Shown in pieces: positions 10,576-13,590 of a stretch of DNA of 64,000 nt; the first letter of the stretch is position 1; each line of letters opens with the position of its first letter. Under the pieces are notes generated by a model. It was not told the DNA's origin and made no database searches. It worked only from the letters and a program-made list of their open reading frames with translations. The DNA comes from Bordetella parapertussis. Lineage in GTDB: Bacteria > Pseudomonadota > Gammaproteobacteria > Burkholderiales > SG8-41. The position numbers and the translations under genes were made by a program. The DNA lies in the NCBI GenBank assembly GCA_945885345.1, contig CAMCYP010000018.1, positions 1 through 64,000 on the forward strand. Reading direction: 5' to 3'.

Positions 10576-11201
10576 AAGTCGTGTATTGCCGGCAAAAAGA
10601 CTTCGCTGACCAGTATAGGGGATTTGCCCGCAGCGAATATCGATCGCCGCGCCCACAATGGCGGTGGCATTTTTTTCAGTTGCGCCGCAGCACCACGATA
10701 CAGCGGATGATTACGCGATAGTTTTTTCTGCCGCAGCGGAAACCGCGCAATCCGCGGATCGGCAAACAAGGCCGCCCCCAGCGGCCGGTTTCCCAGCCCG
10801 GCAATGCCGCGCCAGGCCCCGCGCAAACCACCGGCGGCAAACACCGTGTGCGCAAACACCAGCGGCGTGGCTCCGCGCAGCAACAACACCTCACGCACCA
10901 TCACGCGTTTGGCCGGTGCAGCAAACAAAAAAGCTTCATCGCGATTAACCCGGCGCAGGCCCTGGAATAACACCTTCACCTTGATAGCACCGGCATGCCG
11001 CTCCAAGCGCGCGGTCAAAGAACCGGGATCGGTGAGCCAGCGGTGCAATGCGCCGGCAGCGATTGGTGCGGAACACCAGGAAGAATCTCGGGGAATGGAT
11101 TTCACGATAAACAGGGTTTTGAGTTGCGGAATTATCGCATCAAGCACTGAAAGTTCGCCGGGGGTAGCCCGGCGGCTAGTCACTTTCTCTTGCTTCACCA
11201 A
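10572..11201 (-). CDS. ubiC: Chorismate-pyruvate lyase (N-terminus uncertain; true start probably downstream of 11201)
   Basis: WLTDPGSLTARLERHAGAIKVKVLFQGLRRVNRDEAFLFAAPAKRVMVREVLLLRGATPLVFAHTVFA...GNRPLGAALFADPRI, UbiC-like; operon with ubiA. Confidence 0.85.
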   Translation of the reverse strand: MVKQEKVTSRRATPGELSVLDAIIPQLKTLFIVKSIPRDSSWCSAPIAAGALHRWLTDPGSLTARLERHAGAIKVKVLFQGLRRVNRDEAFLFAAPAKRVMVREVLLLRGATPLVFAHTVFAAGGLRGAWRGIAGLGNRPLGAALFADPRIARFPLRQKKLSRNHPLYRGAAAQLKKMPPPLWARRSIFAAGKSPILVSEVFLPAIHDL

Positions 11202-11210
11202 GAGAAAGTG
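11181..11210. repeat. 12-bp-arm hairpin, left part of an intergenic structured repeat
   Basis: CACTTTCTCTTG-CTTCAC-CAAGAGAAAGTG perfect inverted repeat. Confidence 0.85.
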
Positions 11211-11213
11211 ACC

Positions 11214-11221
11214 AAAGAGAA
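11214..11221. repeat. Target site duplication (left copy) AAAGAGAA
   Basis: Identical 8-mer abuts right TIR at 13322..13329. Confidence 0.88.
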
Positions 11222-11344
11222 GGCGTTATTATACTTCCCATACCCACGTTTTGCGGCGGGTGGGGCGTGAGTAGAGTAACCGATAATATTGAGGCCCTGG
11301 TTTGCGGCCTCCCGGCTCGCGAGCGGCTTACGAGAAAAATACTT

Positions 11345-12112
11345 ATGTTGACCGCGTTTATAGACGATAGCGGAACCGATGGAAGCGGGCCGTTTTGCGT
11401 GCTTGCGGGATACCTGTCAGACGTGGAGCAGTGGAAGTTATTTTCAGATTCTTGGGATATAGAGCTACGTACAGAACCGAAAATAAGTCACTTCAAAATG
11501 GCCCAAGCACACAGCAAGCGCGGACCTTTTTGGGGGTGGGATAACGAGGCCCGCGAAAACAAAGTCGCAAAACTAGCGAAAATCGTAAATCAACACGCGA
11601 TTGGAGGAATCGCCTCCATTGTGAGCAACAAGGCTTATCGAGAAGAGGCCAAGGGGTGCTTACCCGACACTATTGATCATCCGTACTGGCTCTGCTTTGA
11701 GCAAATCGTCATGGAAGCAATTCGTGTGTATGGGCACGAACTTAATGGCGGGAAAATAAATTTTGTATTCGACAGCCAAGGGGAAGGATACGAGCGGCGC
11801 GGCGGACTAGTACACGCAGGATGGCGGGAAGTGCTTACACGCACACCATACGAGCACCTGCTAGGCAGCATTACATTCGCCAGCGATCTCGACGTGCTTC
11901 CGCTACAGGCGGCTGATTTGCTGGCTTGGCATATTCGACGGCGCGGAGATCGTGCCATTCAAAAATCACCGGAAAATCGCCCCGCAGATGAATTATTGGG
12001 GGAAATTCCAATTCGTGTTTTTGATTGGAAGCCCAGTGACATCAGAGGCTATGTTGAGTGGTATCAACAGATGCACCCGAATAGCCCCATCAATAGACCC
12101 GACCTACATTAA
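11345..12112 (+). CDS. DUF3800 domain-containing protein (transposon passenger)
   Basis: MLTAFIDDSGTDGSGPFCVLAGYLS...INFVFDSQGEGYERR...VLPLQAADLLAWHIRRRGD: DUF3800 hallmark motifs (F-DDSG; QAADLLAW). Confidence 0.88.
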   Translation: MLTAFIDDSGTDGSGPFCVLAGYLSDVEQWKLFSDSWDIELRTEPKISHFKMAQAHSKRGPFWGWDNEARENKVAKLAKIVNQHAIGGIASIVSNKAYREEAKGCLPDTIDHPYWLCFEQIVMEAIRVYGHELNGGKINFVFDSQGEGYERRGGLVHAGWREVLTRTPYEHLLGSITFASDLDVLPLQAADLLAWHIRRRGDRAIQKSPENRPADELLGEIPIRVFDWKPSDIRGYVEWYQQMHPNSPINRPDLH

Positions 12113-12276
12113 CCGCGAGATTTCTTGTGGCTGGATTTATTTTTTTTAGGAATTATTGCACTCATGGCACGTTGAAATGATTTATTACTTTCCTCAATTC
12201 CAAGCGCCTTGGCAGTCTCAACAAATCGTTGAGACTGCCTCTTGTCATCTGATTCAGGCTTTGGCTTTTTTGCCAT
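12109..12276 (-). CDS. Small 55-aa hypothetical protein (not in supplied ORF track)
   Basis: Translated by hand: MAKKPKPESDDKRQSQRFVETAKALGIEESNKSFQRAMSAIIPKKNKSSHKKSRG*; AGGAG about 8-9 nt upstream of ATG; lies 30 bp after transposase stop on the same strand. Confidence 0.65.
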   Translation of the reverse strand: MAKKPKPESDDKRQSQRFVETAKALGIEESNKSFQRAMSAIIPKKNKSSHKKSRG

Positions 12277-12305
12277 TGCGTTTTCTCCTGCGCCAAGGTT
12301 CCTCG

Positions 12306-13256
12306 TTAACTAAACGTCGTATAGGTAAGGCGCTTACCTTTCACACCGAGCAACAATTTTTCGGCGCGCTCGATATCACTAACACCATTGGCGGCGCGAT
12401 TGTTGTAACGGAAATCAAACTCGGACAGGTAGCGGTTCAGGTGGTTATGCCCGCAATGTTGATAAACACCTTTCATGCCGCGCTTGAAAATCGAAAAGAA
12501 ACCTTCGATGGTGTTGGTGTGCACGGTCTTATCGGTGTAAGAAACATACTCGCCGATGCCGTGACGCACGATGCCATGCCTATCGAAATAGCGTTTCAGT
12601 CCGTTGTAACGGTTGTTGTATTGCGCGGCTTCGTCGGTCATCACGCGGGCCTTGGGCGAGATGTTCGCTTGCAAAATCGGCAGCAGGGTCGCCAGTTTCA
12701 GGTTATCCACGACCACGCTTTTAGCGCGGCCAGTGGTGCGGTCAACCAGAGACAGCACCTTGTTCTTATGCTCGTATCCACGGCCCTTCTTGACGCCTTT
12801 CGGCTTCTTGGTGAAGTCGTGACCGATGAAGGTTTCATCAATCTCAACGTCCCCGCCGTCACTACCAAATCCAGCCAAGCCCCCGTCCTTCATGGCTTCA
12901 CGGATGCGGTGCGACAGGAACCAAGCCGATTTGAGGGTGATGCCAAGGGTGCGGTGCAACTGGTTACTGCTGATGCCCTTCTTGCTGGACGCAATGAGGA
13001 AGATCGCTTGGAGCCAGAGGCGCAGCGGAATATGGCTGGACTCAAAAATGGTGCCCATCTTCACGGAAAACGGCTTGCGGCAGTCGTAGCACTTATACAG
13101 GCCAATGCGGGTCGATTTGCCGCCCATCAGCTTGTTACGCTCCACGCCGCCGCAGTGCGGGCATACCGGGCCATGCGGCCAGATGCGCGACTCTACGAAC
13201 TCGTAAGCGGCTTCTTCGTTATGAAAGTGCGGGGCGGAAAGGATGGATTCGCTCAT
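12306..13256 (-). CDS. IS1595 family (ISXO2-like) DDE transposase
   Basis: N-terminal zinc ribbon CPHCGG...CYDCRKPFSVKMGTIFESSHIPLRLWLQAIFL; VEIDETFIGHD; VMTDEAAQY; HTNTIEGFFSIFKRGMKGVYQHCGHNHLNRYLSEFDFRYNNR. Confidence 0.95.
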   Translation of the reverse strand: MSESILSAPHFHNEEAAYEFVESRIWPHGPVCPHCGGVERNKLMGGKSTRIGLYKCYDCRKPFSVKMGTIFESSHIPLRLWLQAIFLIASSKKGISSNQLHRTLGITLKSAWFLSHRIREAMKDGGLAGFGSDGGDVEIDETFIGHDFTKKPKGVKKGRGYEHKNKVLSLVDRTTGRAKSVVVDNLKLATLLPILQANISPKARVMTDEAAQYNNRYNGLKRYFDRHGIVRHGIGEYVSYTDKTVHTNTIEGFFSIFKRGMKGVYQHCGHNHLNRYLSEFDFRYNNRAANGVSDIERAEKLLLGVKGKRLTYTTFS

Positions 13257-13321
13257 GACTGGCTCCTGAATGTGAGACCAGTATGAGCGGTAAAAGTGGG
13301 TATGTCAAGTATAACGTCGCC

Positions 13322-13329
13322 AAAGAGAA
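13322..13329. repeat. Target site duplication (right copy) AAAGAGAA
   Basis: Same 8-mer as 11214..11221, immediately flanking the right TIR. Confidence 0.88.
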
Positions 13330-13590
13330 GGGGCGCCGCGGCTGCGTTCAACAATCGTGGGCCGGAGCGCCGGCGTCTGCTCCCGCAAACGGGCCTGCGG
13401 CTAACGAGTCGCAGCCGCCCCCAAGCTCACCGCCCTTCGGGTTCCCTGCGCTGCTCGCCAAGTCAGGCGGCTGCGGAACTCGCCCTTGCCTTCGGCAATG
13501 GCTCAGACAGTCCTCGCCGACTTCCCCTGACTTGGCTGTGCTGCTCGGCGGCTCACATGGGGGTTATGTCGTGGCTGGCGAGGTTTCCAT
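13330..13590. repeat. Right part of the interrupted intergenic structured repeat (non-coding)
   Basis: Contains GCCAAGTCAGG (13457..13467) / CCTGACTTGGC (13526..13536) inverted pair; resembles intergenic repeats I recall from betaproteobacterial genomes. Confidence 0.65.

Follow-up and report, generated by a model that had tools for sequence, protein, structure and literature searches.

The window, as we call the whole 64-kb stretch of DNA analyzed here, contains a 2,100-bp unit (positions 11222-13321) that is a real past insertion and that encloses, between terminal inverted repeats (TIRs), an IS1595-family transposase gene, a gene with a DUF3800 domain, and a short gene for a basic protein of 55 amino acids. 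In the reading that we favor and consider reasonably probable, the unit is a passenger-carrying IS1595 element, or transporter IS, whose cargo is modular; its DUF3800 nuclease would be kept for stabilization or defense, and the small protein would serve as an accessory of transposition.

The 8-mer AAAGAGAA stands as an exact target-site duplication (TSD) on both sides of the unit, at 11214-11221 and 13322-13329. Immediately inside lie the left TIR on the cargo side (11222-11247; GGCGTTATTATACTTCCCATACCCAC from 11222) and the right TIR on the transposase side (13296-13321; GGCGACGTTATACTTGACATACCCAC from 13321 inwards), which are 26 nt long and identical at 21 of 26 positions; the core of the left TIR is common to three related units discussed below (L007, L028, and L042). 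Apart from these ends, no inverted 26-mer pair in the 64-kb window that matches at 17 or more of 26 positions directly adjoins an exact 8-bp repeat, and the best TIR score in 40 block shuffles of the window was 18/26. A search with the joined flanks identified an empty orthologous site in the congener G005 (locus L103), in the intergenic region between two genes that we take to be ubiC and recG from names read off the flanking ORFs. This site has a single copy of the 8-mer and lacks the element, and the left flank aligns with it at 88%, uninterrupted through CCAAAGAGAAGGGGC; the AAAGAGAA repeat is therefore a true duplication and the unit a real insertion. A first-pass annotation of this DNA had given the same coordinates, TIR match, exact TSD, and interior length, all of which were exact on recheck, and its description of a complete IS1595-type unit with DUF3800 inside the TIRs is supported by Pfam and NCBIfam domains as well as by the empty site. 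A DUF3800 gene occupying this locus in the absence of the transposase and TIRs, which would have spoken against that description, was not found, and the empty site of G005 lacks DUF3800 as well. Recent movement, also proposed there, is a fair reading given the perfect TSD, intact ORFs, and empty congener site, yet no second copy of the unit was found in this draft genome, and a lone copy does not directly indicate that the element is active in this strain.

The DNA into which the unit inserted is itself a repeat of about 300 bp (11151-11221 and 13330-13562) that is dispersed between genes across the genus and has a 73-nt core ending CCAAGAGAAAGTGACCAAAGAGAAGG. Uninterrupted copies of this repeat occur in G005, G007, and G019, many partial copies occur in the present genome, and at the same locus in G019 the repeat is inverted.

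The transposase gene (12306-13256, reverse strand) is intact and encodes a 316-aa DDE transposase with an N-terminal zinc ribbon. It matches DDE_Tnp_IS1595 (PF12762) with 115 bits (cut-off, 27), Zn_ribbon_IS1595 (PF12760) with 46.3 bits (cut-off, 25.4), and NCBIfam NF033547 with 181 bits (cut-off, 75), and inspection of its sequence shows that the acidic and lysine motifs to be expected in the IS1595 family (IDETF, TDEA, and NTIEGFFSIFK) are preserved. Named subgroups of that family are ISPna2, ISH4, IS1016, IS1595, ISSod11, ISNwi1, and ISNha5. A passage of PMC8101967 (citing Siguier, Gagnevin and Chandler 2009) describes the N-terminal zinc ribbon as present in all IS1595 groups except IS1016. 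The domain matches and gene orientations bear out the earlier statement that an IS1595 transposase converges here with the DUF3800 gene. A promoter-like site for the transposase (TTGACA-17-CATACT; 13280-13308, reverse strand) matches the consensus at 10 of 12 positions, with its −35 box within the right TIR; this candidate is weak, because such sites are no commoner than in shuffles.

The DUF3800 gene lies on the forward strand (11267-12112), and its product is probably the 281-aa form starting at GTG 11267, a start that the first-pass annotation had overlooked; the alternative ATG at 11345 would give 255 aa. The longer form is likely because its N-terminal extension (ALVCGLPxR...MLT), which begins in the window at this GTG about 20 bp inside the TIR, is also present in the nearest relative of the protein (54% identity), encoded in L002 from a Betaproteobacteria MAG. 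The product matches PF12686 with 39.6 bits (gathering cut-off, 21) and has no match in NCBIfam; a PDB sequence search returned chance-level matches only. Among 12 divergent DUF3800 proteins, D7, S9, L187, Q188, and D191 are invariant (numbering from ATG 11345), D7 and D191 being the putative catalytic acids, and D143 is conserved in a close subset. A fold prediction, suggested earlier as a check for a nuclease-like structure, did return RNase HII-like matches but only with E values around 1e-3 and TM scores of ~0.4 to 0.5: the best PDB fold matches found by Foldseek for the AlphaFold model (pLDDT 78, pTM 0.80; the model rests on four sequences) are the RNase HII structures 1eke, 2dfh, and 2dfe (probability, 0.97 to 1.00; E from 1.2e-3), from which it differs in having 12 to 15% sequence identity. 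RNase HII carries an acidic motif, DEAGRG, near its N terminus, and the FIDDSG motif on the N-terminal side of the DUF3800 protein resembles it. We regard a metal-dependent nuclease with an RNase H fold as the most likely identity of the DUF3800 protein. An RNase H fold has also been predicted for the DUF3800 proteins of rare CRISPR-Cas loci (type V-A2/Cas12a2-linked and VI-F; PMC10910872, PMC12669027); these share the domain with the window protein, which differs in standing alone in a transposon without TPR domains or CRISPR.

Third-position G+C content (GC3) is 51% in the DUF3800 gene, versus 71% in the transposase gene and 69 to 72% in two flanking host genes. DUF3800 is present in 53 of 369 genomes of the class, most such genes not being near a transposase of this clade, and no further DUF3800 gene was found in this draft genome. 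No close relatives of the window protein were detected in phages or IMG/VR, where divergent ones surfaced only via the transposase search, and no DUF3800-associated RNA was detected within the element at a lenient threshold.

To place the unit among its relatives, transposase homologs were gathered from related genomes, IMG/VR virus contigs, and plasmids, and unit ends were located by an 8-bp repeat outside an inverted 24-mer. About 20 units of the same transposase clade were resolved, 1.9 to 3.6 kb in length and bounded by TIRs and 8-bp TSDs, the latter with an A+T content of 77%; the case is weaker for L055 and L063 (15/24 TIR matches, and one TSD mismatch). All resolved units extend beyond the transposase gene. 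The first-pass annotation had named elements with different TIRs that exclude DUF3800 as potential counterevidence; units of this clade with TIRs around the transposase only were not seen. The cargo recognized by Pfam comprises DUF433 plus DUF5615/PIN-like genes (L007; L028 has the same pair by sequence), PIN (G245, and weak matches in L047 and L057), a methyltransferase with Mrr (L048), an ImmA/IrrE peptidase (L052), HNH (L053), Bro-N (L055), weak HEPN-like matches (L064 and L145), and DUF3800 (L042, L051, and L144). Several other passengers have no recognized domain and no nuclease or toxin signature.

A DUF3800 passenger, regarded as unusual in the first-pass annotation, is not a one-off: the search it had proposed for other IS1595 units with adjacent DUF3800 was successful. 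About 3 of the 20 units found by the transposase alone carry DUF3800, and three further loci combine it with a transposase: L004, a distant relative whose own TIRs enclose DUF3800, the small protein, and the transposase and whose TSD differs; L068, with the same three genes near a contig end; and L002, with one TIR and a contig end. L002 and L004 were left out of the DUF3800 frequency because they were found with a DUF3800 query. Among the 38 IMG/VR records with the transposase, 3 hold DUF3800, each time beside the transposase.

The transposase tree and direct comparison of units indicate how this variety arises. The transposase nearest to that of the window (76% identity; support, 98/94) belongs to L007, from the same genus, whose cargo is the DUF433/PIN-like pair; the DUF3800 carrier L051 pairs with the PIN carrier L057 (100/99), and L144 (DUF3800) pairs with L145 (HEPN-like; 100/99), so that DUF3800 carriers occupy at least three places in the tree. 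L144 and L145 come from one genome and have 91% DNA identity over their first 992 bp, comprising the TIR and transposase, followed by unrelated DNA; the two then align again, at 84% identity, across 123 bp that include a small basic ORF. The simplest reading of these alignments is that cargo has been swapped beside a retained transposase block. An IS3-like transposase ORF, recognized by eye, is nested within L145 (G371:C1:438500-445500), whose genome also harbors the nearly identical L144. Since its relatives keep the small protein but differ in their passengers, the window unit looks like one member of a carrier with swappable cargo.

The first-pass annotation had correctly placed two genes in the unit but overlooked the third, the ORF for the 55-aa basic protein (12109-12276, reverse strand), which HMM relatives in related units identify as a conserved accessory of the transposon clade. 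An HMM built from eight copies found relatives in 24 of 38 IMG/VR transposase loci; single-sequence IMG/VR scans returned few loci, several of which end at contig ends. In the 369 genomes of the class, the small protein occurs in two, that of the window and G245, both times inside such a unit; in G245 its neighbors are an IS1595 transposase gene that is now frameshifted, a PIN gene, and a TIR that matches. Four of five plasmid loci carry a small protein of the same type and the fifth a weaker ORF of a second type, and units without the first type (L008, L144, L145, L010, and L053) have another small basic ORF with an SPP...KKK tail. Searches of Pfam, NCBIfam, PHROGs, and PDB returned no match to the small protein, and a low-confidence AlphaFold model (pLDDT 71, pTM 0.29) suggests a pair of helices and basic tails that are disordered. 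Its role is more likely tied to the transposase than to DUF3800 as a partner, because the protein is also found beside unrelated cargo, including complete DUF433/DUF5615 and PIN modules of toxin-antitoxin (TA) type, and in one plasmid unit that has the transposase and no further annotated gene. This distribution points most strongly to a function in transposition, as an accessory or a regulator. DUF3800 and a small protein may also travel alone, because a Polaromonas plasmid (L152; NC_007949.1:112000-118500) has DUF3800 and an unannotated small protein (114127-114255 of the record), with no IS1595 transposase or TIR found; this pair may be a remnant or an independent module.

Three further observations concern these small ORFs. 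In the window, two perfectly complementary 12-nt arms separated by a 5-nt loop (12211-12239) would form a strong hairpin within the ORF, and the 221 nt of the convergent region fold better than shuffled sequences (z, −3.3); a functional hairpin at 12211-12239 was dropped as a candidate, the stem not being consistently present in homologs. The small basic ORF of L053 (5027-5188) ends in KRGRPPKA, which is AT-hook-like and might relate to the AT-rich targets of the elements. By eye, the in-unit small proteins beside the PIN gene of L047 and beside DUF3800 in L144 are Cas2/SinR-like; Pfam recognizes neither.

Several other explanations of the DUF3800 gene deserve consideration. That it is a host gene of this locus, with TIRs and TSD matching by chance, has virtually no probability: this is refuted by the orthologous site in G005, which lacks both genes and has one 8-mer copy, and it also conflicts with the lack of another DUF3800 gene in the genome, the shuffles that stay below the observed TIR score, and the enclosure of the same three genes in L004. 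We also think it very improbable that DUF3800 is a transposition helper rather than cargo, acting for example on ends or on nascent RNA-DNA hybrids. The RNase HII-like predicted fold and the recurrence of DUF3800 inside TIRs of the clade are compatible with help of this kind, but most clade units lack the gene and yet have perfect TSDs, sister transposases swap it for other genes, and the majority of the DUF3800 genes of the class lie away from transposases of the clade.

Two alternatives treat DUF3800 as cargo but assign it a narrower task. It could be the toxin, and the 55-aa basic protein the antitoxin, of an addiction pair that prevents loss of the element: their genes adjoin in the window, L002, and L004 and occur together without a transposase on the Polaromonas plasmid, and sister units carry recognized toxin-type genes. 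We nevertheless judge this pairing unlikely, as the two genes form no operon but converge, the small protein occurs just as well alongside unrelated cargo and next to modules that are already complete, and one plasmid unit has it with the transposase and no other annotated gene. It is possible, though we hold it only tentatively, that DUF3800 is instead a stand-alone anti-phage or anti-plasmid defense gene spread by the element without addiction. Such a function is favored by the DUF3800 proteins that accompany some CRISPR loci and are predicted to be nucleases with an RNase H fold (PMC10910872, PMC12669027), by the methyltransferase-Mrr and HNH genes among sister cargo, and by plasmid DUF3800 genes that have HNH and AbiE genes or an ABC-three-component system nearby; against it, PADLOC models gave no match for three unit-borne DUF3800 proteins, and a single-gene nuclease requires some target discrimination, of which none is visible.

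In the reading that we prefer, that of a passenger-carrying transporter IS, the zinc-ribbon DDE transposase would recognize both GGCG...TTATACTT... ends and move the whole 2.1 kb, whose structure and insertion are observed, into AT-rich 8-bp targets. Comparison across the clade indicates that the TIR and transposase block is retained while the adjoining cargo is exchanged and that the small basic protein accompanies the transposase, on which it would act as an accessory or regulator of transposition. The DUF3800 nuclease would be kept because it stabilizes the element or protects the host, by addiction or by anti-element defense, as is suggested by sister units with PIN, restriction-modification, and ImmA/IrrE cargo.

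The kind of element is already known, since a passage of PMC3129680 (citing Siguier et al. 2009) uses the name transporter IS, in connection with the IS1595 family, for IS copies with passengers. The window unit resembles that family in its DDE_Tnp_IS1595 domain, N-terminal zinc ribbon, ends starting GG, 8-bp TSD, and passenger inside the TIRs; DUF3800 (11267-12112), absent from most sister units, is a passenger unrelated to transposition of the kind that defines a transporter IS. It differs in adding DUF3800 and the small basic protein, neither of which we found described for the family in the literature: our search found no account of IS1595 together with DUF3800 and no description of the small protein. 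Among the closest known counterparts are units on Methylobacterium pMOC1 and Roseomonas p1318-1 (IS1595 transposase, hypothetical protein, VapC/PIN, and small protein), which share the transposase, a cargo, the small protein, TIRs, and TSD but have a hypothetical protein and PIN instead of DUF3800, with codirectional rather than convergent genes. What looks new is thus the recurrent nuclease or toxin cargo together with the conserved small protein, part of which may be catalogued in ISfinder. More speculatively, this IS1595 subfamily could be a dedicated shuttle for stand-alone nuclease, TA, and restriction genes, with modular cargo beside a fixed transposase block, and its transposase could regularly be partnered by a small basic protein of two helices, so far undescribed (e.g., in target binding or transposition control).

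Little cargo is usually expected of an element whose transposase is encoded by one small gene. If this clade routinely carries nuclease- or toxin-type genes beside a conserved partner, it would be a compact vehicle by which these genes spread through Proteobacteria and the prophages they carry, with a small chassis that lends itself to direct testing. DUF3800, a predicted nuclease family, gains a defined mobile context outside CRISPR loci.
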